Origin: Nitratireductor sp. XY-223 | GTDB lineage: Bacteria; Pseudomonadota; Alphaproteobacteria; Rhizobiales; Rhizobiaceae | Length of the DNA stretch: 64,000 bases | Reading direction: 5' to 3' | Assembly: GCF_004959855.1 (NCBI RefSeq) | Contig: NZ_SPNT01000007.1 | Location: 186,001-250,000, forward strand | Shown here: positions 31,175 to 59,712 of the stretch, in pieces | How the letters are laid out: each line of letters opens with the position of its first letter | How positions within the stretch are numbered: position 1 is the stretch's first letter | Position numbers and translations under genes: made by a program | The notes under the pieces: generated by a model | Databases searched by the model: none | What the model was told of the DNA's origin: nothing | The model's input: the letters and a program-made list of their open reading frames with translations, nothing else

Positions 31175-32395
31175 TCAGTTTTGTTTTCCGGCGGACGTTC
31201 TGCCGCCGCCGGTTTCGCTGTCCGCCAGGACCGGTCCCGCCTCGAAGACCGTGTCGTTGTGCTGCCCGAGAACCGGTGCGGCCACAGGCGATTTCAGGGT
31301 GGCGGCGTTGATGCGTATCGGTGAGCGCACCGCAGTCAGCTCCAGACTCGCGTTGCGCCGGATGGTCTGTTCCAGATCGAGCGTGCGGTAGGCCTCGCTC
31401 TCAAGCATGTCCCGCCAGTCGAGAACCTCCGAACACCAGATGTCCGCCGGCTGCAGGACGGCCAGCCAGTCGGCCGTCGTCTTGAGCTTCAGGCGCTCTG
31501 CGATGGACCTCTTGATCTCGTCGCGATGGGTCAGGAGCGCATTCTTGTCGTCGAAGTGGTGCTCGAGGCCGTCGACACCGATGAGCTCTGCCAGGGCTTT
31601 CAGCGACGGGGTCATGGCTAGGGCGAGATAACCGTCGGCCGTTTCGTAGACTCCGTAGGGTGCGCCGAGATAGGCGTGCGCCCCGTTGAAGCCGCTGCGT
31701 TCGGGCGGCCTGTTGCCGTCGTTGAGATGGGTGGTGAGCACCTCGAACTGGAAATCGATCATCGCCTCGAAGAGGCTGGTTTCCACCTTGGCGCCCTTGC
31801 CGGTTATTCCGCGCCCGACCAGGGCCGCCAGCACACCTTGGGCGAGAGCATTGCCCGCCATCATGTCGGCGACCGCAAGCCCCATGGGCATCGGCGGATC
31901 GTCGCGGCTGCCGGTCAGCCACAAGAGCCCGGACCGCGCCTGGGCCAAGAGGTCCTGACCGGGCAGGTCCTTCCAGGGGCCGTCTTCGCCGTAGCCGGAG
32001 ATCGATCCGTAGATTATGGCGGGATTGATCTTGCGTACATCCTCGTAGCCGAAACCCTGCCGCTCGATCACACCTGGCCGGAAATTCTGGATCATCACGT
32101 CCGCCGATTTCAATAGGTCAACCAGCTTTTGCCGGTCGTCCTCGTTGCGCAGGTCCGCCGTCACGCTCTCCTTGTTCCGGTTGATCGCGTGAAAGAGCGT
32201 GTTGTCCCCGTCGATGTCGGTATCCGTGAGATAGAGGTAGCGGCACAGGTCGCCGACACCCGGCCGCTCCACCTTGATGACACGGGCACCCAGGTCCGCC
32301 AGTTTCAGGGAACACACCGGCCCGGAAAGGAACTGGCTGAAATCGACCACGGTCAATCCGTTGAGCGGCCGGTCGGCCTGCGGCAGGTCTCTCAT
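31175..32395 (-). CDS. CaiB/BaiF (class III) CoA-transferase
   Basis: This protein of about 406 aa starts with LNGLTVVDFSQFLSGP, has IKVERPGVGD and NFRPGVIE, and the catalytic Asp region PGQDLLAQ (Asp148). These are hallmarks of the formyl-CoA/carnitine CoA-transferase family. It would move CoA between carboxylic acids. ATG 32395 overlaps the upstream stop by 4 bp; the track start is 24 codons too long. Grouping with MaoC hydratases suggests activation of an unsaturated or hydroxy acid, which is inference. Confidence 0.9.
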   Translation of the reverse strand: MRDLPQADRPLNGLTVVDFSQFLSGPVCSLKLADLGARVIKVERPGVGDLCRYLYLTDTDIDGDNTLFHAINRNKESVTADLRNEDDRQKLVDLLKSADVMIQNFRPGVIERQGFGYEDVRKINPAIIYGSISGYGEDGPWKDLPGQDLLAQARSGLLWLTGSRDDPPMPMGLAVADMMAGNALAQGVLAALVGRGITGKGAKVETSLFEAMIDFQFEVLTTHLNDGNRPPERSGFNGAHAYLGAPYGVYETADGYLALAMTPSLKALAELIGVDGLEHHFDDKNALLTHRDEIKRSIAERLKLKTTADWLAVLQPADIWCSEVLDWRDMLESEAYRTLDLEQTIRRNASLELTAVRSPIRINAATLKSPVAAPVLGQHNDTVFEAGPVLADSETGGGRTSAGKQN

Positions 32396-33531
32396 GACCG
32401 GCTCTCCAGATAGGCTGCCTGCAGGCGGTCGAGCGCGGTGCGGACGTCGATATCGCCGCGCAGGCATTCATGAACGATGTCCCCGGCATGATCCTGCAGG
32501 CGCATATAGCCGTCATAACGCGGGCGCAGCCACGCTGCCTCAAGGGTCTTGCGGGTGTTGCGGAAGAAATCGCGGGCGGCTGCATTGCAGCCGTCATCCT
32601 CCCAGGCAGCCGCGTTGGCCGGTTGCCCGCCGGAGGCGAAGTAAAGGCCGGTCTGGCACTGTGCGCCGGCGATCCAGAACGCGTAGTCGGCAGCGGTTTC
32701 TCCGTTGGCGGACACGGAGGAAACGGCGATGCCCGTACCGCCGATCACCGTGCCGCGCGGGCCGTTGTCGCCGATACCGGGGGCATCCGTGAATGTGATG
32801 GGAAAGCGGCAGTAGCCGCGGCGGCTGTAATTGGTGTAGCCGTAGCCGAAAGGCGCGTAGATCGGCCCGTCCGAGGTGCGGCCCATCCATTCGAGTATGC
32901 CGATGGGATCGAGCGACAGGCAGCGCGGGTCCATCAGGCCGACGATTTCTCGCATCAGTTCGAGTACCTGCTCGCCGTGTTCCCGTTCGATGAGAACATC
33001 GGGGTCCTCCGCGACGGCAAAGTCCATATTCCGGGCAAGGCCGAAGAAGGTCATCAACGCGTTGATCGGAATGAGCGCGAAGGCGACCCGGCCGCCATGG
33101 GCGAGTTCCACAACCTCGTTCCATCGCGTCGGCGCCGTGCCCAGCTGGTCCGATCGATAGGCGGCGACCGGCGTGGCGGCGTCGATCGCCAGCGCCCACT
33201 GGTGCCCGTCGAACGCGTAGGAACGGTGCGAGGCGCCGACCGAGCGGGCCGCCAGGGCTTCGAGTTCCCCTGCCCTGCCGAGCGTGTCGAGCGCCAGCAG
33301 ATTTCCGCCACGGGCGACCTCGCCCACATGCGGATGATCGATGACCATCAAGTCGTATTCGCCGGCCATCGCTTCGATCGGACGGTCCGCAAATGCCTGA
33401 AGCGAGCGCTTTTCCCAGGTTATCGAGACGCCAGGATGCATCGCCGCAAATTCCCGCGACGTCGCAACCATCGGATCGTATCCGCGGCTGTGGTCCCAGG
33501 TCATGCCGCGAAGCTGGATTGCCTCACCCAT
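32392..33531 (-). CDS. Solute-binding-protein-fold protein without signal peptide
   Basis: This protein of about 379 aa looks like a family-1 extracellular solute-binding protein ([14 protein letters not shown] at the start, then [18 protein letters not shown], a typical first lobe). No hydrophobic or Tat signal precedes the domain, even if the track start at 33582 is used. The chosen ATG 33531 overlaps the MaoC stop by 8 bp and leads straight into the fold. It overlaps the CoA-transferase start by 4 bp, so it is made together with cytosolic enzymes. A cytoplasmic ligand-binding or enzymatic role is inferred. Confidence 0.75.
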
Positions 33532-34099
33532 TGGCGGTGACCTGTTTCTTCTTCTCTGCAAGGCTGGCGGCTTCGTCGGCAAAGGCCGCCGGATCGCGGT
33601 AGAGCGCGGTCATGAGATGTTCGCAGTAAAGCACGATCTCGCCATCGCCCTTGAAGACCGAGTAGCTGACGCGCACCTTGCCCATCTCCTCGTTCTTGAC
33701 CTCTTTCGAGAGGTTCTCGCGGATCGTGTAGATGGTGTCACCGATGAAGACCGGGGCGATGAAGCGGAGCCGGTCGTAGCCGTAGGAAAACGAGTTCAGG
33801 CAATTGGTCGCGGCCAGGCCCAGCCCGTAGGAGAAAACCTGCGCGCCGGCCACCAGCCGTTTCCCGAAAACGCCCTCCTTCTCGGCAAAGCCCTGGTCGC
33901 CGACATAGGGATGCATGTCGAGCACCAGCGAATTGAAAAGCATCGCCTCGCCTTCGGAGATCGTGCGCCGGATCGAGCGGATCTTGTCGCCGACCTCGAA
34001 GTCCTCGAAGTACCAGTTCTCGGCATTCCAGACCGGGATATCGCAGTGGTCCTTGGGAAGTCCTGGCAGGGCCCGCGCATGAATACCAATCTCAGCCAT
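33524..34099 (-). CDS. MaoC-like hotdog protein with altered catalytic motif
   Basis: This 191-aa single-hotdog protein is of the MaoC dehydratase family ([11 protein letters not shown] at the start of the domain, [17 protein letters not shown] after it). The hydratase motif D-x-x-P-x-H reads DMHPYV (Asp61, Val66), so the catalytic His is missing. It is the first gene of the 14.5-kb operon, with RBS GGGGAGG. A divergent MaoC gene with an intact motif lies 131 bp away, so the two may form a heteromer with one catalytic site. Confidence 0.85.
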
Positions 34100-46687: not shown

Positions 46688-48058
46688 TCAGGCGCGGCCC
46701 AGCAGGCGCTCCACCTCAAGCCCGTGGCTGAGCAGGCGTTCGTCCGCGCCGCCAACGGCGCACAGAAGCAGGCTCGTCGGCATCAGCGCCTTGTCCGTTC
46801 CGTTGGGCAGCGCCAGTCCCGGCATGTTCAGGAAATTGCCGATCGAGGTGTTGCGCAGGACCTTCAGATTGGTCTTGTGAAACAGTTCATCGTCGGCCTC
46901 CAGCGGCTCGATTTCGGGCGCCGTCATTGCCGTGGTCGGCATGGCGACCAACCCGCCATCGACGAATTCGGCCAGCTCTTCGGCGAGGCTCTCGCGCGCC
47001 CGCGAAAGCGTGATGACATCGGCCGCGGACATCGCCTTGCCGCCCATTATGCGGGACACGACACGGGCGTCGATCCGGCTGACCGAATTGCCGTCCACGA
47101 GATGGCGGTGCTCCGCGTAGGCGTCCGCAGCCGTGATGGTCCCGTGCTCGAGAGCCAGTTCCGCGGCCCTGGCGAAAATCTCGGAGGGCCCGCGGACAAT
47201 GCGCGCTCCCGCCGCCTCCAGCCGTCCGATGCTCTCACGGAAATTGGCCTCCACGTCGGGATCAAGATCGTCGAGGATGACGGCCTCTGGCACGCAGATC
47301 CTGAGCCCGGAGACCGATCTGCGCCGCACCCCCGTGGTAACGGCACCCAGAAGCACCGCATCCAGCAGCACGCAGTCCTCCACCGAGCGGGCGAGCGGCC
47401 CGACGGTGTCGAGCGTTCGGGAAAGCGGAAAGACACCTTTCTTGCTGATGCGTCGCTCACTCGGCTTGAAACCGACAATGCCGTTGAACGCGGCCGGGAT
47501 GCGGATGGAGCCGCCGGTGTCGGTGCCGATCGAGCAGGGAACGTAACCGGCAGCGACCGCGACGGCCGAGCCGGACGAGGAACCGCCCGGAACACGGGGC
47601 GTTCCGTTGCTGTGCGGATTGTGGGGCGTTCCGTAATGGGGATTGAGCCCGAGCCCGGAATAGGCGAACTCGGTCAGGTTGACCTTGCCGAGCGTGACCA
47701 TGCCCGCCGACGTGGCATTGGCGGCAACCGGCGCATCCATGTGGGCCGGATCGCTTCCCCTGAAGATGTTCGATGCCGCGGTGGTCCTGTGCCCGGCAAG
47801 GTCGACGAGATCCTTCCACGCGATGGGCACGCCATCCAGCGGCGAAAGCGGCTGGCCCGCCGACAGTCTTTTTTCCGATGCCCTCGCCTCGGCGAGGGCG
47901 CGCTCATGGGTGATCAGGATGAACACGTTGCCCGATTTATCGGCTTCGGCCTTCGCGAGAAGATGCCGGGTCAGGTCCACGGGGCTCGCCTCACCAGCCG
48001 CCAGCGCCCGGCCGACGGCCGATGCGGAACGGGATGACAGTTCGTCGAGATCAACCAT
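46688..48058 (-). CDS. Amidase signature family hydrolase
   Basis: This 456-aa protein has the amidase catalytic triad: Lys in VPIAWKDLVD, the Gly/Ser-rich PGGSSSGSAVAVAAG and the nucleophile Ser in GTDTGGSIRIPA. It hydrolyses a carboxamide, releasing ammonia. It overlaps the CobW stop by 8 bp and is the last gene of the 57.2-46.7 kb operon. It may act after the deacetylase-fold hydrolase on an amide intermediate; the substrate is not visible. Confidence 0.92.
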   Translation of the reverse strand: MVDLDELSSRSASAVGRALAAGEASPVDLTRHLLAKAEADKSGNVFILITHERALAEARASEKRLSAGQPLSPLDGVPIAWKDLVDLAGHRTTAASNIFRGSDPAHMDAPVAANATSAGMVTLGKVNLTEFAYSGLGLNPHYGTPHNPHSNGTPRVPGGSSSGSAVAVAAGYVPCSIGTDTGGSIRIPAAFNGIVGFKPSERRISKKGVFPLSRTLDTVGPLARSVEDCVLLDAVLLGAVTTGVRRRSVSGLRICVPEAVILDDLDPDVEANFRESIGRLEAAGARIVRGPSEIFARAAELALEHGTITAADAYAEHRHLVDGNSVSRIDARVVSRIMGGKAMSAADVITLSRARESLAEELAEFVDGGLVAMPTTAMTAPEIEPLEADDELFHKTNLKVLRNTSIGNFLNMPGLALPNGTDKALMPTSLLLCAVGGADERLLSHGLEVERLLGRA

Positions 48059-49106
48059 GGCATTCGGCTCCGTGCATGACCGGATGCTCGCGGTCGAAAG
48101 CGACCGGCTCCGCGATATTGAGAAAAGTGTCCAGCGAACGGCGGATGCGGCTTTCCTCGACGCCCCGCGTAATGAAGACCAGCCGCGATCTCCGGCTGCC
48201 GTCGGGCCAGCTCTTCAGATGGAGCGGCGGATGCACAACGTGCTGCACGCCGTGTATGACCACAGGCGTCTCGCTTTCGCGCACGTTCAATATGCCCTTG
48301 ACCCTGAGGATCTTCTCGCCGTGGGCGTGCAGGACGGCGGTCAGCCAGATCCCGAAGGCCGTCCAGTTGATACTTTCCGACAAATCGATCGTAAAAGCAT
48401 GGGCCGTGCCCGAGTGATGGCCGTGGTCGTGCTGGTGCGTCGCGCCGTGCGCCTCGTCTGCGAACCAGCCCGCGACCTCCTGTTCACGGGTGTCTTCCTC
48501 GGCAACGCTGCGCTCGAACAGAAAAGACGCGTCAAAAGCGCGGCCGCCGCTCCTGCGCAGCGGCGCGAACGGATTGCACCGCCTGACCTCGGCTTCCAGC
48601 GCAGCCATCCGACGCCTGTCGGCCAGGTCTGACTTGGTCAGCAAAAGGCGATCCGCCACGGCGACCTGCTTGAGCGCTTCGGGCTGGTTGCGCAAGGTGT
48701 TGAGGCCGGCAACCGCATCGATGGTGCAAACGACGTTTCCGATGCGAAAGTGGTTGCGGATGACCGGCTCGGCAAGGACCGTCGAGACGATCGGCGCCGG
48801 ATCGGCCAGTCCCGTGGTTTCAACAAAAACCCTGGAAAACGGTTCGATGGCGCCGGACGAAACCTTTGCCTGCAGGCCGCGGATCGTTTCCTGAAGGTCG
48901 GAGCGGATGGTGCAGCACACACATCCGTTCTCAAGCAGCAGAACGCCCTCGTCCACCTCCTCGAGCAGGATGTGATCGAGCCCGATCTCCCCGAATTCGT
49001 TGACGATCACCGCCGCGTCGGAAAACTCGGGACGCCGCAACACTTCGTTCAGAAGCGTTGTCTTTCCGGATCCGAGGAAGCCGGTGATCACGTTGACCGG
49101 AATCAT
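48051..49106 (-). CDS. CobW/COG0523 family GTPase (metallochaperone)
   Basis: This protein of about 351 aa has Walker A GFLGSGKTT (9-17), the metal-binding GCVCC motif (62-65), LTKSD for guanine recognition, and a His-rich stretch (HQHDHGHH) before the C-terminal CobW domain. Such G3E GTPases deliver zinc or another metal to partner enzymes. ATG 49106 overlaps the small-protein stop by 4 bp; the track start is far too long. It probably serves the metal-dependent hydrolase encoded nearby. Confidence 0.9.
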   Translation of the reverse strand: MIPVNVITGFLGSGKTTLLNEVLRRPEFSDAAVIVNEFGEIGLDHILLEEVDEGVLLLENGCVCCTIRSDLQETIRGLQAKVSSGAIEPFSRVFVETTGLADPAPIVSTVLAEPVIRNHFRIGNVVCTIDAVAGLNTLRNQPEALKQVAVADRLLLTKSDLADRRRMAALEAEVRRCNPFAPLRRSGGRAFDASFLFERSVAEEDTREQEVAGWFADEAHGATHQHDHGHHSGTAHAFTIDLSESINWTAFGIWLTAVLHAHGEKILRVKGILNVRESETPVVIHGVQHVVHPPLHLKSWPDGSRRSRLVFITRGVEESRIRRSLDTFLNIAEPVAFDREHPVMHGAECHG

Positions 49107-49426
49107 GCCGGCACCCTTGCAAGATCCCGAAGATAGCCTTCGTCCAGCGGGTCGATCGGCCTGCCGGAAAGACGCTCGACTGCCGACCAGACCGCCTGAA
49201 GGTCGTCGACCACCTCCTGCCGGCCGGTCGGCGACGAGACGACGTAGCTCGTCGCCTGGAAATCGCCGACCTTCATGCGGCGCGGCCGCAGCGCCGCGTT
49301 GACGAGCCTGGTTCGCTCGATGCGCTCGGAGCGCGGCGTCGGCGTTCCGTCGCCGCCGAACGCCTGCCGGTGCGCCGAGATTTCCGCCCAGTGAACAATG
49401 CCAAGCAATCCGCAAAGGCCGCACAT
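49103..49426 (-). CDS. Small protein of unknown function with N-terminal MCGLCGLLG
   Basis: This protein of about 107 aa starts MCGLCGLLG, so an invariant-looking Cys2 and a CxxC lie at the extreme N terminus; the rest is Arg-rich and without recognisable domain. ATG 49426 is supported by ACGGAG. The N terminus recalls class-II glutamine amidotransferases, but the protein is far too short for that fold. It sits 19 bp after the deacetylase gene and overlaps the CobW gene, so a role in metal transfer or as an enzyme subunit is plausible. I do not recognise its family. Confidence 0.7.
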   Translation of the reverse strand: MCGLCGLLGIVHWAEISAHRQAFGGDGTPTPRSERIERTRLVNAALRPRRMKVGDFQATSYVVSSPTGRQEVVDDLQAVWSAVERLSGRPIDPLDEGYLRDLARVPA

Positions 49427-49445: not shown

Positions 49446-50327
49446 CTAGCCCGCCCGCGGCGAGCGCCGGACGAAGTCGTCGGCAATCTCGTCGAAGGTG
49501 GTGAACTTGACCCCGGGATGGCTGATGATGTGGTTGTAGAGCCGCTCCAGCATCAACAGCACCTGCGGCTTGCCGGAAACGTCCGGATGCAGCGTGAAGG
49601 TGACGACGCCGTAGTCCATCTCGCGATAGACCCAGTCGAACTGGTCGCGCCACATTTCCTCAAGATGGCGCGGATTGACGAAACCGTGGCTGTTGGGCGC
49701 CGCCTTCATGAACATCATCGGCGGGAGATCGTCCAGGTACCAGGACGCGGGAATCTCGACGAGATCGGTTTCCCGGCCGCGCACCAGCGGTTTCATCCAT
49801 TCCTCGGGATGCTTGGTGTAGTCGATCTTCGTCCAGCTGTCGCCGACGCGGATGTAATAGGGCTCGAAATCCCGGTGCATCAGCGAATGGTCGTACTTGA
49901 TGCCCTTCTTCAGAAGCAGTTCGTTCGAGACCGGCGAGAACTCCCACCACGGTGCGACATAGCCGGTCGGCCGGCGCCCGCAGAGCTTCTCGATGAGGTG
50001 TATGGACTTGTCCATCACCGCTTCTTCCTGCTCCGGTGTCATGGCGATCGGGTTCTCATGGCTGTAGCCGTGCATGCCGATCTCGTGACCGGCTTCGACC
50101 ACCGCCCGCATCTGCTCGGGAAATGTCTCAATGGAATGGCCGGGAATGAACCAGGTCGTCTTGATTCCCCAGCGGTCGAAAAGCTTCAGAAGGCGCATGG
50201 AGCCGACTTCTCCGGAAAACAGTCCCCTCGAGATGTCGCACGGGCTGTCCTCGCCGCCATAGGATCCGAGCCAACCGCCGACGGCGTCGACATCCACTCC
50301 AAAGGCGCAAAAAATCTCCTTGGCCAT
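49446..50327 (-). CDS. Polysaccharide-deacetylase-fold hydrolase (allantoinase/cyclic-imide-hydrolase-like)
   Basis: This 293-aa cytosolic NodB-fold protein has no signal peptide. The metal-binding HGYSH (H86, H90) within [14 protein letters not shown] is intact. The first motif reads [10 protein letters not shown] instead of TFDDG, keeping Asp12/Asp14. Proteins of this subgroup include uricolytic allantoinases and cyclic imide hydrolases rather than polysaccharide deacetylases. The RBS GGAGG precedes ATG 50327. With a CobW chaperone and amidase downstream, hydrolysis of a cyclic amide or imide followed by amide cleavage is inferred. Confidence 0.85.
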
Positions 50328-50381: not shown

Positions 50382-51509
50382 TTACGCGGAAGGCTGCTGG
50401 TCGAGCACCACGGTTGCCCGCGCCGGTCTCCACCGCAGCGTCACTCTGCCGCCCGGTTCAACGCCGCGCCCGGCGATCTTGTCGGCATAGGTCTCAAGCC
50501 GCAGGCTGCGGCCGTCGTCCAGGGCGACAGTCGGATAGGCGAGCTGACCGACCCGGTCGATGCTGCCGACGACACCGTCAATCGTGTCGAACGACGTGTC
50601 GGCCGCCCGGCTGCCGGCGCCGTCGATTTCCACATATTCGGAAGGCACGACGACCATCGCGTCGCTGCCCGATTTCGCCTCGCTTGCCTGGAATGCCGGC
50701 GTTCCCTGTAGCGGGCCGAACGGTGTCTCGACGACTGCGCGGTCATTGCCGGCGCCTGCCAGCGTTCCCGAAAACAGGCTGTTGCGTCCGATGAACCGCG
50801 CGACAAACGGCGATTTCGGACGGGTGTAGAGTTCGAACGGCGCCGAGATCTGCTCGACGCGCCCGGCATTCATGACCACGACCCGGTCGCCCATCGAAAG
50901 CGCCTCCGACTGGGCGTGCGTGACGAACACGAAGGTGATGTTGAGCGAACGCTGCAGGAGCTTGAGCTCCTCCTGGATCGACTTGCGCAAATTCGCGTCA
51001 AGCGCGCCGAGCGGCTCGTCGAGCAGCAGCATGTCCGGTTCCGTCACAAGGCCGCGCGCCAGCGCCAGGCGCTGCTTCTGGCCGCCGGACAGCGAGGTCT
51101 CCTTGGCATCGGCAACGTCGCCGAGGTGCAGCTTGTCTATGATCGCGCCCACGCGGCGGCGCTTTTCCTCGGTGCCGATGCCGCGGACATCGAGGCCGAA
51201 GCCGATGTTCTCGCGCACGGTCATGTGCGGAAAAATCGCGTAGTTCTGAAAGATCGTCGCGGTCGGCCGGCGCTCGGCCGGAACGTGCGTGTAATCCTTG
51301 CCGCGGATCAGCAGCTTGCCGGAGGTGATGTCCTCAAGCCCGGCGATCATCCTCAGCGTCGTCGTCTTGCCGCATCCGGAGGGGCCGACAAAGGAGATGA
51401 ACTCGCCCGGCTCGACCTGCAGGTCGAAGGCTTCGACCGCAACGTTGCCGCCCGGATAGACCTTTCCGATTTTCAGCAGTTCGAGATCGTATTGCTTCAT
51501 TGTCGGCAT
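50382..51509 (-). CDS. Spermidine/putrescine-type ABC transporter ATP-binding protein (PotA-like)
   Basis: This 375-aa protein has GPSGCGKTTTLRMIAG, LSGGQKQRLALARG, LLLDEPLGALDANLR and VTHAQSEA, then a TOBE domain. ATG 51509 or 51500 could start it; neither has a strong ribosome site. It follows the binding-protein gene and is the second ATPase of this operon. Confidence 0.92.
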   Translation of the reverse strand: MPTMKQYDLELLKIGKVYPGGNVAVEAFDLQVEPGEFISFVGPSGCGKTTTLRMIAGLEDITSGKLLIRGKDYTHVPAERRPTATIFQNYAIFPHMTVRENIGFGLDVRGIGTEEKRRRVGAIIDKLHLGDVADAKETSLSGGQKQRLALARGLVTEPDMLLLDEPLGALDANLRKSIQEELKLLQRSLNITFVFVTHAQSEALSMGDRVVVMNAGRVEQISAPFELYTRPKSPFVARFIGRNSLFSGTLAGAGNDRAVVETPFGPLQGTPAFQASEAKSGSDAMVVVPSEYVEIDGAGSRAADTSFDTIDGVVGSIDRVGQLAYPTVALDDGRSLRLETYADKIAGRGVEPGGRVTLRWRPARATVVLDQQPSA

Positions 51510-51563: not shown

Positions 51564-52775
51564 TCAGGCGCTCAGGAATTCGTCCCAGCGCGCGATCAGG
51601 TGGTCGTAGCGGTCCGGCCACTGGTGCCAGTAGGACACGTGGCTGGCACGCTGCTCGAGCGAGCCGCCGTCGCGGACATCGCCTTCCTTGATGCCTCTCT
51701 CGCCGGCGCCGACCCAGGGTTTGCCCTCGTACCAGAAGCCGTATTTCTCCGGCGACATGACATCCTTGATGGTCGTCGTCGGCGAATAGTAGCCCTGCTC
51801 CGACACGGTGATTGCCGGCGGTCCTGACAGCCAATAGTCCGCATAGGCCTTGACGGCATCGGCATTGGGGGAGTTGCCAATGAGTGAAATGCCGATTGCC
51901 CACCCGCGGTAGCCTTCCTTGGGGACCGCATAGGAGCATTCGATCCCCTGGGCCTTGACTGCCATGACCGCCGGCTGCCAGGCGTCCGCGAGGATCATCT
52001 CGCCGGAGGCCAGCAGATTGACCAGTTCGCCGAAATCACCCCACAGCGCCCGGAACTGTCCGTCCTTCTTCTTGGAAATCAGGAATTTCGCGGCCTCGTC
52101 GATTTCCTCGGCGTTCGGGTTGCCGGGATTGGGAACCTCCAGGAGACCGAGCGAATTCATCGCCAGAATGGCCTGGCCGAAAGCGATCAGCGGATCGACG
52201 TTGAGACCGGTCTTGCCCTTGAACTTCGGATCGAACAGCGCGGTCCAGGTGTTCGCTTCCTCGGCACTGACAAGATCCGGGCGGTAACCGATCGAGTCGA
52301 AATTGTAGACCGTCGGAACCATCCAGAGCTCTGTCTTGCCTTCATCGGCCCAGATCTGTCCGGAGATCTGTGCACCCGGCGCGATGCGCGGATCGGTGTC
52401 GGTGAACGTCGCACGGATATTGCCCCAGTTCGACAGGTCCGACGTCGCGATCGGCTTGATCGTGTTGGTCGCCGTCATCGCCGGCAGGCGTTCGCCGATG
52501 GTCTCCCAGCAATCGTAGGCGCTTGAGCCCGACAGCAACTCGGTCTGGGTGTTCGGAAAGATGTCGGCCTTGCCGGATACGGCGCTGACACCCGACTTCG
52601 ACTTGAAGTCATTGAGAATGCGTTCCTGGACGGTGACCGACAGGCCCACGGTCCGCAGCTGCAGGCCGTTCAGGCTGCCGGCCGCACGGGCCAGGCCCGG
52701 ATTCAGCAAGGCGGCTGATCCGAGCGCTCCGGTCGTTGCCAGAAACTTGCGGCGGTTCATTGTGAAGTTGCTCAT
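51564..52775 (-). CDS. PotD/PotF-type extracellular solute-binding protein, Tat-exported
   Basis: This 403-aa protein has a twin-arginine signal (NRRKFLATTG, then a hydrophobic stretch to GLARA). The mature spermidine/putrescine-type binding domain contains VPTVYNFDSIGY, GQFRALW, YRGWAIGIS and FWYEGKPW. It captures substrate for the permeases encoded at 54340-56098. It has a clear paralog without signal at 58462. It lies 51 bp after an SDR gene. Confidence 0.92.
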   Translation of the reverse strand: MSNFTMNRRKFLATTGALGSAALLNPGLARAAGSLNGLQLRTVGLSVTVQERILNDFKSKSGVSAVSGKADIFPNTQTELLSGSSAYDCWETIGERLPAMTATNTIKPIATSDLSNWGNIRATFTDTDPRIAPGAQISGQIWADEGKTELWMVPTVYNFDSIGYRPDLVSAEEANTWTALFDPKFKGKTGLNVDPLIAFGQAILAMNSLGLLEVPNPGNPNAEEIDEAAKFLISKKKDGQFRALWGDFGELVNLLASGEMILADAWQPAVMAVKAQGIECSYAVPKEGYRGWAIGISLIGNSPNADAVKAYADYWLSGPPAITVSEQGYYSPTTTIKDVMSPEKYGFWYEGKPWVGAGERGIKEGDVRDGGSLEQRASHVSYWHQWPDRYDHLIARWDEFLSA

Positions 52776-52826: not shown

Positions 52827-53585
52827 TCAGTAGCGGCCGACCAGCAGGCCCCCGTCGACCGTGATTGTCTGTCCGGTGAGGTATCGCGCGGCGTCCGACG
52901 CCAGGAACACGATGACATCGGCGATATCTTCGGGTTCGCCGACGCGGCCCATCGGAATGAAGGATGCCGCCGCCTCCAGGCCGGCGGGGCCCAGAGAGTG
53001 CTCCTCGGAGAGCGCCTGGGCGGTGCGGATATAGCCGGGCGCGACGCCGTTGACCCTGATGCCGCTGGAGGCGAGTTCCACGGCAAGACCGCGGACCAGC
53101 CCGACGACACCAGACTTGGCTGCGGAATAGTGCACGTGCTCGTCCCAGCCATAGGCGACACCCATGATCGACGAGAGGCAGACGATGGATCCGGAGCGTG
53201 CTGCTTTCATGCCCGGCGCGGCGGCGCGAACGAGCCGCATCATGCCCTTCAGATCGATATCGAACGTGCGGTCCCACTTCTCGTCGCTCAGTTCACCGAG
53301 CGGCACCTTGTGGGCGATGCCGGCATTGTTGACGATGCAGTCGATGCCGCCGAACCGGTGTTCGATGTCGCGAACCGCGGCGTCGCACGCGGCACTCGAT
53401 GTCACGTCGAGGTGGCGGAACTCGGCTGTTCCGCCCGAGGCACAGATCGCCTCGGCGACGGATCGGCCTTCGTCCTCAAGAATGTCGGTGACCATGACCC
53501 GGTATCCGGCGCGCCCGAAAGCCGTTGCCGTGGCCCTTCCGATGCCGATGCCGGCGCCTGTGATCAGAACTGTCCTGGAAGTCAT
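52827..53585 (-). CDS. SDR family oxidoreductase
   Basis: This protein of about 252 aa has LITGAGIGIGRAT, VNNAGIA, CLSSIMGVA and YSAAK. ATG 53585 with GAGGAG upstream is preferred over the GTG five codons earlier. It lies 11 bp after another SDR gene, so the two likely act in sequence on the imported compound. Confidence 0.9.
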   Translation of the reverse strand: MTSRTVLITGAGIGIGRATATAFGRAGYRVMVTDILEDEGRSVAEAICASGGTAEFRHLDVTSSAACDAAVRDIEHRFGGIDCIVNNAGIAHKVPLGELSDEKWDRTFDIDLKGMMRLVRAAAPGMKAARSGSIVCLSSIMGVAYGWDEHVHYSAAKSGVVGLVRGLAVELASSGIRVNGVAPGYIRTAQALSEEHSLGPAGLEAAASFIPMGRVGEPEDIADVIVFLASDAARYLTGQTITVDGGLLVGRY

Positions 53586-53596
53586 ATCCGCGCTCC

Positions 53597-54343
53597 TCAC
53601 AACATTACGTCGCCGCAGTTGGGGCCGAGGGTCTGGCCGACATAGGTCCGCGCATCGTCCGATGCCAGAAACGCCACGGTCGCGGCGACGTCCTGCGGCT
53701 CGCCGAATCGCCCGAGCGGCAGGTCGGCTGCCTTGGCCTCGCGCCAGTCAGGCGAAAGCGCCCTGACGAGTTCCGTGTTCACGGGCCCCGGGGCGACAGC
53801 ATTGACCCGCACGCCGGCGCCGCTGACCTCGCGGGCCAGAGCCTTGGTAAGGCCGATGATGCCGGCCTTTGCCGCCGAGTAATGAACCAGCTCGACGCCA
53901 CCGATCTGGCCGAGTTGCGAGGCGATGTTGACGATCACGCCCTCGCCGGCGGCAAGCATCGATGCGATTGCGCGCCGGCAGCCCAGGAAACAGCCGCGAA
54001 GGTGCACGGCGATCATCCGGTCCCAGTCCCCGGCATTCATTTCCCGGAACGGCACCTGCTGGACGATGCCGGCATTGTTGACGAGCAGGCCGCAATGGCC
54101 CCAGCTTTCCTCGCACAGGGCGAAGGCCCGCTCGATGCCCTGCGATGACGAGACGTCGCCCTCGATGGCCAGCGCCGTGCCGCCGGCGGCGCTGATCTGC
54201 GACGCCGTTTCATCCGCGGCCTTCGGCGACAGGTCGTTGACGACAACCCTTGCGCCCTCGGCGGCCAGCCGGACAGCAATCGCCCGGCCGATTCCCGCAC
54301 CGGCGCCGGTGACGATGGCATTGCGGTTCGAGAGCCGGCTCAC
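53597..54343 (-). CDS. SDR family oxidoreductase
   Basis: This 248-aa protein has IVTGAGAGIGRAI, VNNAGIV, NIASQLGQIG and YSAAK, a classical SDR. The GTG start overlaps the permease stop (GTGA). It may reduce or oxidise a keto or hydroxy intermediate of the imported compound. Confidence 0.9.
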   Translation of the reverse strand: MSRLSNRNAIVTGAGAGIGRAIAVRLAAEGARVVVNDLSPKAADETASQISAAGGTALAIEGDVSSSQGIERAFALCEESWGHCGLLVNNAGIVQQVPFREMNAGDWDRMIAVHLRGCFLGCRRAIASMLAAGEGVIVNIASQLGQIGGVELVHYSAAKAGIIGLTKALAREVSGAGVRVNAVAPGPVNTELVRALSPDWREAKAADLPLGRFGEPQDVAATVAFLASDDARTYVGQTLGPNCGDVML

Positions 54344-55197
54344 GCGATGTCCTCCTGCATGTCGGAGAACCGCGCACGCGCCCGGCGGGTCGAAAGGCCC
54401 ATCAGGATGCCGTAGACCGTCAGCACTGCGAAGGAAAACAGCGTGGTCAGGATGCCGAATGCGAAAAGGTTCGGATGGATCTCGACGGCAAAGGTGCCGT
54501 AGATCGCGATCGGCATGGTGACGTCGGAGCCGGCGGTAAAGAGCGTTCTCGGAAACTCGTCATAGCTCAGCGTCAGGGCAAACAGCATGGCGGAAAGAAC
54601 GCCCGGAAAGATCATCGGGAACGTCACCTTGCGGAAGGTCCTTGCCGGCGGCACGCCCAGCGACCAGGCAGCCTCCTCGACCGACCTGTCGAAGCGGTTG
54701 AAAATGGCGAGCATGACCAGGAAGGCGAACGGGTAGGTGTAGACCACGTGCAGCACGAACGCCGTGCCCCACCAGGACCGGTCTATGCCGAGTTGGTCGG
54801 CGACCAGCGCCATGCCGAGGCCGAGAAGGACGCCCGGCACCATCATGCCGAGCACGACCAGATAAAACACCACGCCGGAGCCCTTGAACCTGGTGCGGAA
54901 AGCCTGGGCCGTCAGCGTTCCGAGTACGGTCGAGACGACCATCGTCGCGAAGGCGAGACTGAGCGATCGTGTGAGCGCCTCGGCGATGGGCAGCGGCGCG
55001 ATGCGGGACGGCGGCGCCAGGCCCATCACGTGCTGGTACCAGAATGTCGACCACTCACGGATCGGGAATTGCGGCCCGCCCTCCGGTCCCTGCTGGAAGC
55101 TGAGGATGGCCATGACGGCGAACGGCCCGTAAAGGAAGGCGATGAAAAGCGCCGTGTAGAGACCGAGAAGCCAGCGAAGTCCGACGAGATGATGCAT
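54340..55197 (-). CDS. Spermidine/putrescine-type ABC permease, PotC-like
   Basis: This 285-aa permease has six predicted spans and an EAA loop (EEAAWSLGVPPARTFRKVTFPMI). It starts 4 bp after the PotB-like stop and is coupled to the SDR gene. It forms the channel with the PotB-like permease. Confidence 0.92.
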   Translation of the reverse strand: MHHLVGLRWLLGLYTALFIAFLYGPFAVMAILSFQQGPEGGPQFPIREWSTFWYQHVMGLAPPSRIAPLPIAEALTRSLSLAFATMVVSTVLGTLTAQAFRTRFKGSGVVFYLVVLGMMVPGVLLGLGMALVADQLGIDRSWWGTAFVLHVVYTYPFAFLVMLAIFNRFDRSVEEAAWSLGVPPARTFRKVTFPMIFPGVLSAMLFALTLSYDEFPRTLFTAGSDVTMPIAIYGTFAVEIHPNLFAFGILTTLFSFAVLTVYGILMGLSTRRARARFSDMQEDIA

Positions 55198-55201
55198 GGT
55201 C

Positions 55202-56098
55202 TCAAAGCTCCCGCTGCAGATTGACCAGCCGGAGCAGGCCGGTGATCACCACGGCCATCACGGCGGTCAGCACGACGCCGGCAACGGCGGCGAATGCCCA
55301 TTTCAGCGAACCGACCTGGGTGACGATGATGTTTCCAAGAAGATTGACCTTTCGCCCGGAAAGCGCTGAGGCGGTTGCAAATTCACCGAGAACCATCACC
55401 GACACGAAGATGGCCCCGACAACCACGCCCGGCAGGCTGAGCGGAAAGATGATCTTGCGGAAGATCGTGAGCGGCGTGGCGCCAAGGTCGCGCGCCGCCT
55501 CGATGAGGCTGTCGTCGATCCGCGCCAGCATGAAGGCGATCGGGCCGACCATGAAGACCACGTAGATCTGCACCATGCCGATGATCACGGAGAGCTCGGT
55601 GAATAGCAGAACCTCGATCGGTCCGGAGATCAAACCGAGCTTTTCGAGCACGATGTTGATCGCCCCTTCCTTGCCGAGCATCGGCCGCCAGGCCAAAACC
55701 CGGATGAGGAACGAGGTCCAGAACGGGATCACGCAGGTAACGAGAAGCACCGTCTGCAGGGTCTTGTTGCGCACGAACCGGCCGATGAAGAGCGCCGTCG
55801 GGTAGCCGGCCAGGAATGTCAGGACCAGGACCGTCAGCCACAGCCGCAGGGTGCGTATCAGCGCGCCGTAGTAGGTTTCGGAGCCAAAGAAGGCCGCCCA
55901 CGACTTCGTGGTCAGGGTCGAGTTGATCGCAAAGGTCGTCTGCGTCCAGAAGCTCACATAGACCATCATGACCAGCGGCACGATGAGGAACAGCACCATC
56001 CAGGCAACGCCCGGAGCCAGGAGGAAGAAGTGCAGATTCCGGCGCCAGAAGCTTTCCCTGCCCGCTTCCTCCGGGATGTCATGTGTCACGGCACTCAT
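55202..56098 (-). CDS. Spermidine/putrescine-type ABC permease, PotB-like
   Basis: This 298-aa permease has an EAA loop (EAARDLGATPLTIFRKIIFPL) and a first span (FFLLAPGVAWMVLFLIVPLVMM). The ATG overlaps the ATPase stop by 4 bp. It pairs with the PotC-like subunit. Confidence 0.92.
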   Translation of the reverse strand: MSAVTHDIPEEAGRESFWRRNLHFFLLAPGVAWMVLFLIVPLVMMVYVSFWTQTTFAINSTLTTKSWAAFFGSETYYGALIRTLRLWLTVLVLTFLAGYPTALFIGRFVRNKTLQTVLLVTCVIPFWTSFLIRVLAWRPMLGKEGAINIVLEKLGLISGPIEVLLFTELSVIIGMVQIYVVFMVGPIAFMLARIDDSLIEAARDLGATPLTIFRKIIFPLSLPGVVVGAIFVSVMVLGEFATASALSGRKVNLLGNIIVTQVGSLKWAFAAVAGVVLTAVMAVVITGLLRLVNLQREL

Positions 56099-57201
56099 TG
56101 GGCAACCTCCAGAACGGGCTCGTGCCGGAGCATGCCGCCGCCCTTGCCGTACAGCAGGACGTTCTCGACGGGCCAGCGCAAAATCCGCTTCTCACCCTGC
56201 CGCATGCCTCTCGGATCGACTGCGCTCAAATGTTTTTCGGCTTCAATCACGCCGCCGTCCGGACGCCGGAAAAAATAGACGACGCGGGAGCCGAGAAACT
56301 CGCTGGCTATGAATTCCGCCTCCATCTGCGCCGAGCCGGACTGGCCGCGCGAATCCGGATCGCAGATCGCGACATTGTCGAAACGGAAAACGTAATGGAC
56401 AGCTCCGGAGACGCCCGGCGGCATGGCAAGGCGCGCGCCGGCGGTCTCGAACGCGCCGCCCTGCCCGGACCCGGACAGGATGTTGTAGGCGTTGAGGAAC
56501 CGCGCGACCTGCACGTTCGCCGGCCGGCTGAAGATGTCGTGCGGGGTGTCGACCTGAATGGCCCTGCCCGCATCGAGCACGATCATCCGGTCGCCCATGG
56601 CAAGCGCCTCGGCCTCGTTGCCTGTGACATGCATGAACGTCACACCGAGCGCCGAACGGATCCTGCGCAGTTCGACCGTCATGCGCTCACGCAGATTGGC
56701 ATCGAGTGCGCCCAGCGGTTCATCGAGCAGACAGATGCGCGGCTCGCAAATCAGCGTCCGCGCAAGCGAGACGCGCTGACGCTGACCGCCGGAAATCTCG
56801 CCGACCATGCGATCGCCGAATTCCTCCAGCCCGACCAGTTCCAGCATCCGCTCGACCCGGTCGTTCACTGTCCGCTGATCCGATACGGGATCGATCTGCC
56901 GGTAGCGCAGGCCGAAGGCCACGTTGTCGAAAACGGACATATGCGGAAAAAGACCGTATTTCTGCTGGACGAAACCGAGGCCCCGCAGATGCGGCGGCGT
57001 TCCCGTCACGGTTTTTCCGTCGAGGACGATGGCGCCCGTATCGGGGCGCTCCAGGCCGGCGATCAGACGCAGAAGCGTCGATTTTCCCGAGCCGGACGGT
57101 CCCAACAGGGTCAGATACTCGTCATCTTCTATTTCAAGGCTGAAGTCCCGGACGGCGATATTGCCGCCAAACGACTTGTTCAGCCCTCGGATTTCCATCA
57201 T
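56095..57201 (-). CDS. Spermidine/putrescine-type ABC ATP-binding protein (PotA-like, first copy)
   Basis: This protein of about 368 aa has GPSGSGKSTLLRLIAG, ISGGQRQRVSLARTL and LLDEPLGALDANLR with a C-terminal TOBE-like region. The start is ATG 57201 or the adjacent ATG 57198, behind GGCGGAG; the track start 22 codons earlier is unlikely. It is the first gene of the operon, divergent from the GntR gene. A second PotA-like ATPase is encoded at 50382. Confidence 0.92.
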   Translation of the reverse strand: MMEIRGLNKSFGGNIAVRDFSLEIEDDEYLTLLGPSGSGKSTLLRLIAGLERPDTGAIVLDGKTVTGTPPHLRGLGFVQQKYGLFPHMSVFDNVAFGLRYRQIDPVSDQRTVNDRVERMLELVGLEEFGDRMVGEISGGQRQRVSLARTLICEPRICLLDEPLGALDANLRERMTVELRRIRSALGVTFMHVTGNEAEALAMGDRMIVLDAGRAIQVDTPHDIFSRPANVQVARFLNAYNILSGSGQGGAFETAGARLAMPPGVSGAVHYVFRFDNVAICDPDSRGQSGSAQMEAEFIASEFLGSRVVYFFRRPDGGVIEAEKHLSAVDPRGMRQGEKRILRWPVENVLLYGKGGGMLRHEPVLEVAQ

Positions 57202-57314
57202 CTCCGCCCCCGGCTTTCCTCTAAGCCCGCTCTTATTGATCGATGTAATAATGCTTTTTGTGTTCAAAAGTCAATTATTGATCTGGCGATTATTACTAGA
57301 TTTTAGGGATATCG

Positions 57315-57397: not shown

Positions 57398-58399
57398 ATG
57401 AGCAGCAGCGAGGCCATTCCGATCGATCCGTCCGCACCGCGATACGCGGTCATCGAGAAGCTGGTGGAGGCCGCGATCGAGCGCGGGACACTGCCGGCAA
57501 GGACGGTCCTCATGGAAGGACCGATCGCCAAGCTCTTCGGAACCAGCCGCACGCCGGTGCGCGTAGCGCTGAACAGCCTGTGCGACCGCGGCCTGCTACT
57601 TCGGTTCGAGGGGCGCGGGTTTGTCGTTCCGGGGGACGGAGACCCGGTGCGCGCGCCGCTGACCGGGCCGATGCTGGGATTGCCCGAGGATGTCTCGCCC
57701 GACCCCGCGCCCGTCACGTCGCAGCGCATCGCCAGGGATTTCGAGACCGTCCTGGTTCACGCGCTCCCGTTCGGCAGGTTCGGCGTCAACGAACAGGCCA
57801 TGGCCGACCACTACAATGTCAGCCGCACGGTCGTCCGCGAGCTCCTTTCGCGGCTGCAGGATCGCGGCCTGATCAACAAGAACCGCCGCTCCCACTGGGT
57901 CATCGGGCCGCTCACGGCGCGGGAGGTCGCCCAGTATTTCGCCATTCGCAGCAAGCTGGAGCCGCTGGCGCTGGAAGATAGTGCGCCGCGCCTGCCGGCC
58001 AGGGACATCAAGGACATGTGGGGGCGGTTGCAGACTGCCCTCGACCAGGGCGACGACCTGTCGAGCGATACGCTCGAGGAACTTGAATCGGACATGCATG
58101 TGCGTTTGCTTGCCGGGTCCAACAACAGCCATTTGCTGCGCATGGTCCACCAGAGCCAGCTGGCGCTCGTCGTGAACCGGGTGTTCGCATCGTTTATCGG
58201 GACCGGACCGTTCAAAAACTCGCTGCGCGAGCATGCCATCGTCTTCGAGTTCATCATGCGCGGCGCCTATGAGATGGCGGCCCAGGCCCTGGAAGAGCAC
58301 CTGAACCTGGCCGCTCGCCGCACACGCCAGAGGCTGATGACCCTTTCGGTCTTTCCCGAGCCGGAATTTCCGAGATACCTGGTCAAGCGCGCATCCTGA
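57398..58399 (+). CDS. GntR/FadR-type regulator with two winged-helix domains and FCD domain
   Basis: This 333-aa protein is longer than usual FadR-type regulators (about 230-250 aa). Residues about 15-75 form one GntR wHTH (GPIAKLFGTSRTPVRVALNSLCDRG). Residues about 110-170 form a second (EQAMADHYNVSRTVVRELLSRLQDRG). The FCD effector domain follows with Asp-x3-His (ESDMHVRLL) and later His residues for metal or acid binding. It is divergent from the ABC operon it likely controls, and upstream of the signal-less binding protein. Confidence 0.9.
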   Translation: MSSSEAIPIDPSAPRYAVIEKLVEAAIERGTLPARTVLMEGPIAKLFGTSRTPVRVALNSLCDRGLLLRFEGRGFVVPGDGDPVRAPLTGPMLGLPEDVSPDPAPVTSQRIARDFETVLVHALPFGRFGVNEQAMADHYNVSRTVVRELLSRLQDRGLINKNRRSHWVIGPLTAREVAQYFAIRSKLEPLALEDSAPRLPARDIKDMWGRLQTALDQGDDLSSDTLEELESDMHVRLLAGSNNSHLLRMVHQSQLALVVNRVFASFIGTGPFKNSLREHAIVFEFIMRGAYEMAAQALEEHLNLAARRTRQRLMTLSVFPEPEFPRYLVKRAS

Positions 58400-58461: not shown

Positions 58462-59712
58462 GTGGCAACGAAAGCGGACAGGCAGGCGGACAGTAGGGAC
58501 AATCCGTCCAGGGCGCCCGGTGAGACTGCCAGCCATCCGGCACCGGCGGTGGGACGCGGGAAGCTGACGCTACGGGTCCTTGGCACGTCGGTCACGCAGA
58601 TTCCGCCGCTCAAGCACGCCGCCGAGCGCGACCTTGGCCTTACCCTCGAATTCATAACCCTGGACGGCACCGAAGCGCAGCGCCGCGGCGCGCTGGCGCC
58701 GCACAGTTTCGACGTGTACGACCAGTGGTTCCACGATCTCGACCTTATCTGGCCGACCGGTTCGATCCGCGGCATAGACATCGGCAGGATCACGCGCTGG
58801 GACCAGATCAACGACCTGCCGAAGACGGGAAGACTGTCGCCGTCCTCGACGTCCGCGTCGGGCGGCGACCCGAGCAAGAGGCTCTTCGTCCAGCTTGACG
58901 GATCGCTCGGCGGAACGCCATCGGACCGCATCAGCATGGTGCCGACCGTGCACAATGCCGACAGTTTCGCCGTGGTCGGGGACCAGGCCGGCAAGATCAA
59001 CAGCTGGGGCAGCCTGCTTGATCCGAAATGGTCCGGCAATGTCATCCTCCAGCGCGATGCCGCGATCGGCTGCCTCGACATGCTGCTCGCGCTGAAGGCC
59101 CGCGACGAACTGCATGTCGGCGACATGGGAGACCTCACGCTCGAGGAGATCGACGCCGTCACCGAGAAACTCGCCGGCTATTGCTCGATGGGGCAGTTTC
59201 GCCGGATCTGGGCCGACGAAGCCGAAGCCATCGCCGCGCTGCGCGGCGGCATCGACCTGATCGGCAGCCTGTGGTGGTCAGGGGCCGTGAAACTGCGGCG
59301 GTTGGGGGTTCCGGTTTCCATGGTCACCCCGGTCGAAGGCTTTCGCGGCTGGTTCGGCGGCATGGCCCTGTCGACGCATCTGCGCGGCCGCGAACTCGAC
59401 GCCGCATACGACTATCTCAACTGGTGGCTCGACGGGTATGCGGGCGCGGCGATGGCGCGCCAGGGATCCTACATGTCCAATCCGGAAGCCGTCCGACAAC
59501 ATCTGACAAAGGCAGAATGGGATTTCTGGTACGAGGGCAAACCGGCGGGCGGCCCGATTACGGACTGGGACGGCTACACCGTCTATGACGTCGGCGAAAG
59601 CCGCGGCGGCGGCAGCTACCAGCAGCGCATCGACAAGATCGTTGTCTGGGATGCGGTCATCGAAGAGCACAACTATCTCGTCCGGCGCTGGGAGAACGCT
59701 ATTTCAGGATGA
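58462..59712 (+). CDS. PotD-like solute-binding protein lacking an export signal
   Basis: This 416-aa protein starts at GTG 58462 behind CGGAG. The first 35 residues are polar (Arg, Asp, Ser, Pro-rich) with no hydrophobic core, lipobox or Tat motif, and the frame closes at a stop only 11 codons upstream. The fold is clearly related to the exported protein at 51564: VPTVHNADSF, GQFRRIW, FRGWFGGMAL and FWYEGKPA match it position by position. It is encoded 62 bp after the tandem-wHTH GntR gene, on the same strand. A cytoplasmic ligand sensor or buffer is inferred. Confidence 0.82.
   Translation: MATKADRQADSRDNPSRAPGETASHPAPAVGRGKLTLRVLGTSVTQIPPLKHAAERDLGLTLEFITLDGTEAQRRGALAPHSFDVYDQWFHDLDLIWPTGSIRGIDIGRITRWDQINDLPKTGRLSPSSTSASGGDPSKRLFVQLDGSLGGTPSDRISMVPTVHNADSFAVVGDQAGKINSWGSLLDPKWSGNVILQRDAAIGCLDMLLALKARDELHVGDMGDLTLEEIDAVTEKLAGYCSMGQFRRIWADEAEAIAALRGGIDLIGSLWWSGAVKLRRLGVPVSMVTPVEGFRGWFGGMALSTHLRGRELDAAYDYLNWWLDGYAGAAMARQGSYMSNPEAVRQHLTKAEWDFWYEGKPAGGPITDWDGYTVYDVGESRGGGSYQQRIDKIVVWDAVIEEHNYLVRRWENAISG

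Follow-up and report, generated by a model that had tools for sequence, protein, structure and literature searches.

A signal-less PotD-type binding protein, presumably cytoplasmic, and its association with a tandem-wHTH GntR regulator in Nitratireductor sp. XY-223 and other Proteobacteria

The window analysed here, a stretch of 64,000 nucleotides of the Nitratireductor sp. XY-223 genome (contig NZ_SPNT01000007.1), carries on its forward strand the gene sbpC (58462..59712), encoding a PotD-type (SBP_bac_8) binding protein of 416 aa that lacks an export signal. The GTG start codon has GGAGA upstream and lies 62 bp behind the stop of gntR (57398..58399, forward strand). An earlier note on this DNA had described the upstream gene as a tandem-wHTH GntR regulator, and the Pfam search agrees, with PF00392 at residues 16-77 of its product, a second HTH at 129-164 and a C-terminal FCD domain at 181-303. 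The other genes of the cluster are on the reverse strand. Divergent from gntR lies a PotA-like importer ATPase (ATPase 2, 56095..57267), next to the importer permeases A (55202..56098) and B (54340..55197), the SDR dehydrogenases 1 (53597..54343) and 2 (52827..53600), and sbpT (51564..52775), which encodes the Tat-exported PotD-like binding protein of the ABC importer (N-terminal sequence MNRRKFLATTGALGSAALL...). Beyond it are a second PotA-like ATPase with a TOBE domain (ATPase 1, 50382..51509), a PuuE/HP0310-type hydrolase of 293 aa from the cyclic imide hydrolase (imidase) family (49446..50327), a 107-aa protein without Pfam match (49103..49426) whose gene overlaps the start of cobW, a CobW-family GTPase of the metallochaperone type (48051..49106) and an amidase (46688..48058) that matches the PRK06102 equivalog above its cut-off.

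Both SbpC and SbpT match the Pfam family SBP_bac_8 (37.4 bits for SbpC, with a cut-off of 27), and the same search detected no HTH domain in SbpC. In the whole genome, the two proteins are the sole members of their family at E<=0.001. The AlphaFold2 model of SbpC (pLDDT 90.7) is two-lobed and PotD-like, with residues 1-28 predicted to be disordered and the fold starting at residue 36; its best solved structural matches are PotD, VcPotD1 and YdcS, PotD being the top one (TM 0.83 on the target). SbpC therefore shares fold and family with the PotD/PotF-type binding proteins, from which it differs by the missing signal peptide, the loss of the acidic amine contacts and the absence of a tie to an importer.

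Export signals were judged from reading frames and hydropathy. Upstream of the GTG codon just 10 codons are open in frame, and the region from gntR to the first beta-strand of SbpC encodes no twin-arginine or hydrophobic segment in any of its three frames. Since no frame offers such a segment, a signal hidden by a frameshift, a sequencing error or an earlier start is ruled out; the note's description of a polar N terminus without a possible upstream signal is borne out, and the sequencing error that it had considered is not the explanation. SbpC thus lacks the Sec, Tat or lipoprotein signal of PotD-type binding proteins of ABC importers. The same holds for the reading frames of about 117 relatives with at least 39% identity, which come from Alpha-, Beta- and Gammaproteobacteria: not one encodes an export signal, and most start with a short polar extension, some 6 to 50 residues long and often with an APAV-like end. 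The family has 44 invariant columns across the three classes. These sequences represent a conserved signal-less family of binding proteins that are presumably cytoplasmic. That SbpC is a decaying remnant of a once exported protein, as the lost signal peptide and one broken copy (genome G166) might suggest, is extremely improbable given the intact frames in over 100 genomes, the invariant columns and the confident fold, and is contradicted by the conservation across classes.

In contrast, a twin-arginine signal is present in 23 of the 24 next-nearest relatives (31-37% identity), and also in a 38% relative from the wider class. The lone exception (L166, G266:C42; 32% identity) begins MSQTPLRVF..., seems signal-less and stands inside the Tat-exported group, where it could be a second, independent signal loss. 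The signal-less sequences are monophyletic in the tree (support 0.946), and the 31-37% relatives make up a clade of their own (support 0.991). SbpC would then be a former Tat-exported PotD-type protein, its signal having been lost once, before the family radiated into three proteobacterial classes.

The relation of SbpC to SbpT is more distant. BLASTP aligns the two proteins over residues 159-415 of SbpC, the C-terminal two-thirds, with 31% identity (E 3e-37), and gives no alignment for the N-terminal lobe. All four landmark motifs that had been noticed in both proteins were recovered (VPTVHNADS/VPTVYNFDS, GQFRRIW/GQFRALW, FRGW/YRGW and FWYEGKP). In the tree, the window SbpC is at a distance of about 2.5-3.2 from the 31-37% group versus 3.99 from SbpT. 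Since SbpC is closer to this other family of Tat-exported binding proteins, a recent duplication of the importer's binding protein is not its origin: of the paralogy proposed earlier, the distant kinship stands, whereas the close one does not. The idea of a copy of the importer's binding protein re-used for the importer's ligand is not supported either, as another Tat-exported family is closer and sbpC is kept in clusters with MFS or NCS1 transporters. It is very improbable, too, that SbpC gets to the periplasm without a signal of its own, for example carried by SbpT, and serves the importer there; a Tat-exported homolog and an importer do adjoin sbpC in many Alphaproteobacteria, but sbpC is retained in clusters of Betaproteobacteria, Gammaproteobacteria and Leisingera that lack both an importer of this kind and a Tat partner, and its lobe-1 residues differ from those of SbpT.

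The residues common to SbpC, its Tat-exported kin and SbpT include N165, D167, W182, F246, W250, W271, R295, W297, Y337, R381, R389 and W396, and seven others are conserved in the SbpC clade only (Y86, Q88, F90, H91, D94, W97 and R109). In the alignment, the aromatic clamps of PotD are kept (W229 as W271, W255 as W297), whereas D257 is replaced by G299 and approximately E171 by I202; SbpC thus lacks, at the aligned positions, the acidic residues that contact the amines in the polyamine-binding PotD/PotF proteins. Since the clamps are kept while D257 corresponds to a glycine, a polyamine ligand appears unlikely. More plausible would be a small ring or half-amide that is neutral or anionic.

The neighbouring genes give a possible context for such a ligand. 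The hydrolase is homologous to the HP0310/HxnM-type enzymes (phmmer against 3qbu, E 5.5e-149). HxnM of A. nidulans is 64% identical to the cyclic imide hydrolase of P. putida (PMC9304392) and works with the amidase HxnN and the dehydrogenase HxnW (PMC9304392, PMC3084791), and HP0310 was inactive on the compounds tried (PMC3084791). Since the family contains imidases acting with an amidase and a dehydrogenase, the window cluster, which likewise holds an HxnM-type hydrolase, an amidase and SDRs, looks like one for the catabolism of a cyclic imide or a similar ring. It differs from the described pathway in that no binding protein is noted in the consulted passages of these two sources, and in that some sbpC clusters have 5-oxoprolinase genes instead of the hydrolase. 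CobW and the 107-aa protein follow the hydrolase. The latter, which begins MCGLCGLLG and is also found between the hydrolase and cobW in loci without sbpC (L116, L117, L119), is possibly a metal-handling partner of CobW.

To describe what accompanies sbpC, a family sample of 299 genomes was used, in which 37 carry the signal-less sbpC, 52 the hydrolase (E<=1e-80) and 35 both. In 36 of the 37 genomes with sbpC, the tandem-wHTH GntR gene lies no more than about 11 kb away on the contig that carries sbpC, and in the lone exception the cluster is split across contigs. None of the sample's 17 genomes with the hydrolase but no sbpC has this GntR gene; clusters with hydrolase and CobW that lack sbpC lack this regulator as well. 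In the GTDB collection, 78 of 80 sbpC loci come from genomes with this tandem-wHTH GntR. The pairing of such a regulator with a signal-less PotD-like protein, for which the earlier note had proposed a survey, is therefore conserved across classes.

All other components vary. The Alphaproteobacterial clusters similar to that of the window have the ABC importer with sbpT, two SDRs, the amidase, the HP0310/PuuE hydrolase, the 107-aa protein and the CobW GTPase. The transporter is of the MFS type in Paraburkholderia, Pantoea and Klebsiella plasmids and of the NCS1 type in Leisingera, with sbpC kept, so that cognate permeases and an ATPase, as expected for the binding protein of an ABC importer, are lacking in some clusters. 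One MFS-type cluster (L198) is on an IncFIA/IncFII-typed plasmid of a Klebsiella pneumoniae bloodstream isolate (NZ_CP147639.1), where the sbpC product is annotated 'signal peptide prediction'. The hydrolase is itself a variable companion, its ortholog being absent from ten sbpC genomes tested. Gene-by-gene reading of the flanks in two of these, Roseibium and Albimonas (L033, L044), showed 5-oxoprolinase genes (pxpA, accC-like, pxpB, pxpC) immediately upstream of sbpC, an apparent swap of ring-opening enzymes; R. johnstonii 3841 (L199) has both systems alongside sbpC. At another locus without the hydrolase (L131, in G166), sbpC is a decaying copy broken into two frames. Lonsdalea keeps only a GntR gene divergent from an SDR-sbpC pair. 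An accessory function of SbpC for the imidase and CobW was rejected as a general rule, as imidase and CobW without sbpC and sbpC without imidase both exist. Since importer, hydrolase, CobW, amidase and SDRs are each variable and GntR is nearly constant, the tandem-wHTH GntR is the sole near-constant companion of sbpC.

On these data, it seems improbable that SbpC passively buffers a reactive or toxic ring compound inside the cell, or binds it for protection, and neither catalyses nor signals. A binding fold without export would suit it, and related intermediates of the fungal nicotinate pathway are described as slightly inhibiting growth (PMC9304392). However, a buffer would not require one particular regulator, and the absence of the GntR from all imidase clusters without sbpC would be left unexplained.

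The arrangement of the two genes is diverse. Where they adjoin each other directly, five arrangements occur: gntR followed by sbpC (the window and L127), convergent (22 loci), sbpC followed by gntR (L125, L128, L129 and L132), cobW followed by sbpC and gntR (Caballeronia and Paraburkholderia) and divergent (L107). No gntR-sbpC fusion was found in the loci read. Partial distance correlations, not corrected for shared phylogeny, were 0.72/0.54 between sbpC and GntR, 0.65/0.55 between sbpC and the amidase and 0.12/0.03 between sbpC and the imidase-type hydrolase; the hydrolase groups with CobW (distance correlation 0.76, likewise uncorrected). The link of SbpC with the GntR thus gains support from the sequence data, and that with the importer loses it.

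We propose that SbpC would work in the cytoplasm and bind the ring compound that is imported, or an intermediate formed from it (a cyclic imide, a lactam or a half-amide), and that it would report this ligand to the tandem-wHTH GntR controlling the catabolic cluster, as a separate ligand-sensing subunit or as a presenter of the co-inducer. The class of the ligand, a contact between SbpC and GntR and the effect on regulation are the parts of this proposal that we infer, and we give a co-sensor of this kind slightly less than an even chance. The signal-less monophyletic clade with Tat-bearing nearest kin, the invariant columns, the near-obligate GntR and the repeated adjacency of the two genes argue for it. 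The note's suggestion of a binding protein re-used inside the cell survives in part: SbpC is, by its sequence, a cytoplasmic binding protein with a conserved GntR partner, whereas a ligand common to SbpC and the importer is not supported. On the other side, sbpC lies directly behind cobW in 43 loci versus abutting gntR in 33, the GntR gene is about 10 kb away in Rhizobiaceae, the amidase distances correlate with those of sbpC about as strongly as those of GntR, and any member of the GntR regulon would likewise be expected to co-occur with the regulator.

The main rival, which we consider less likely and rank second, is a cytoplasmic metabolic role of SbpC, as an enzyme with the PBP fold or a carrier that passes an intermediate on to the SDRs or the amidase. 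Enzymes with this fold exist (MqnA, NMT1/THI5, HisG), and sbpC is placed inside catabolic operons, not only after cobW but before the amidase gene in 14 loci and after pxpC in Roseibium and Albimonas. Its evolutionary distances track those of the amidase, Lonsdalea retains one SDR alone with it, and the seven clade-specific residues could be catalytic. Against this role, none of the cluster's enzymes is constant, as each of amidase, imidase, SDRs and 5-oxoprolinase is absent from some clusters whereas GntR almost never is, and many pocket-type residues are identical to those of exported binding proteins.

The FCD domain bears on the co-sensor proposal from both sides. The window GntR keeps the metal ligands E230, H234, H279 and H301, and the metal site is kept in 62 of 91 sbpC-linked GntRs and lost in 29; it is intact in all 20 tandem-wHTH GntRs with no PotD-like protein encoded in the vicinity. 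The losses, which are concentrated in related lineages, fit a sensing function handed over to SbpC in some lineages, not as a general rule, and a general replacement of FCD sensing is only partly supported, as most linked regulators keep the site. A stricter form of the proposal, in which SbpC would sense the ligand as a stand-alone subunit of the GntR and the regulator's own FCD sensing site would have been allowed to decay in some lineages, is put forward tentatively. The window GntR and the other linked regulators with an intact site could sense the ligand alone. Tandem-wHTH GntRs without a PotD-like protein nearby also exist, and a need of every such regulator for a binding protein was rejected, none being found within 10 kb in the 20 other loci.

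Binding-protein folds in cytoplasmic control are known. The LysR and LacI families have PBP-fold effector domains that sense ligands in the cytoplasm; these are fused and ancient, whereas SbpC is full-length, separate and seemingly derived from an exported protein. SgrR and DsvR, transcription factors composed of an HTH and an SBP_bac_5 domain, use a binding-protein fold inside the cell for transcriptional control, as proposed for SbpC (PMC13060122), but their domain is from another SBP family and fused to the DNA-binding domain, whereas SbpC has none in its polypeptide and stands beside a GntR with its own FCD. In the open-access literature, nothing relevant was found on a signal-less cytoplasmic binding protein paired with a GntR. 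The window encodes another SBP_bac_8 protein without signal (32392..33582, reverse strand), as the note had claimed; its gene overlaps that of a CaiB-type CoA-transferase, with an exported binding protein and an IclR-type regulator encoded nearby. Its 13 orthologs (36-83% identity) also begin directly at the mature fold, which points to a second conserved signal-less family.

Annotation pipelines label SbpC-type proteins 'extracellular solute-binding protein', by which a presumably cytoplasmic, conserved family and its function are misplaced. The sbpC clusters offer a handle on a ring-cleavage pathway that is poorly described and occurs in rhizobia, marine bacteria and some Enterobacterales plasmids. 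If the pairing with GntR is functional, an exported binding protein would have come to serve a transcriptional regulator as a separate subunit, and these loci would provide a genetic system for how binding-protein folds become intracellular sensors.
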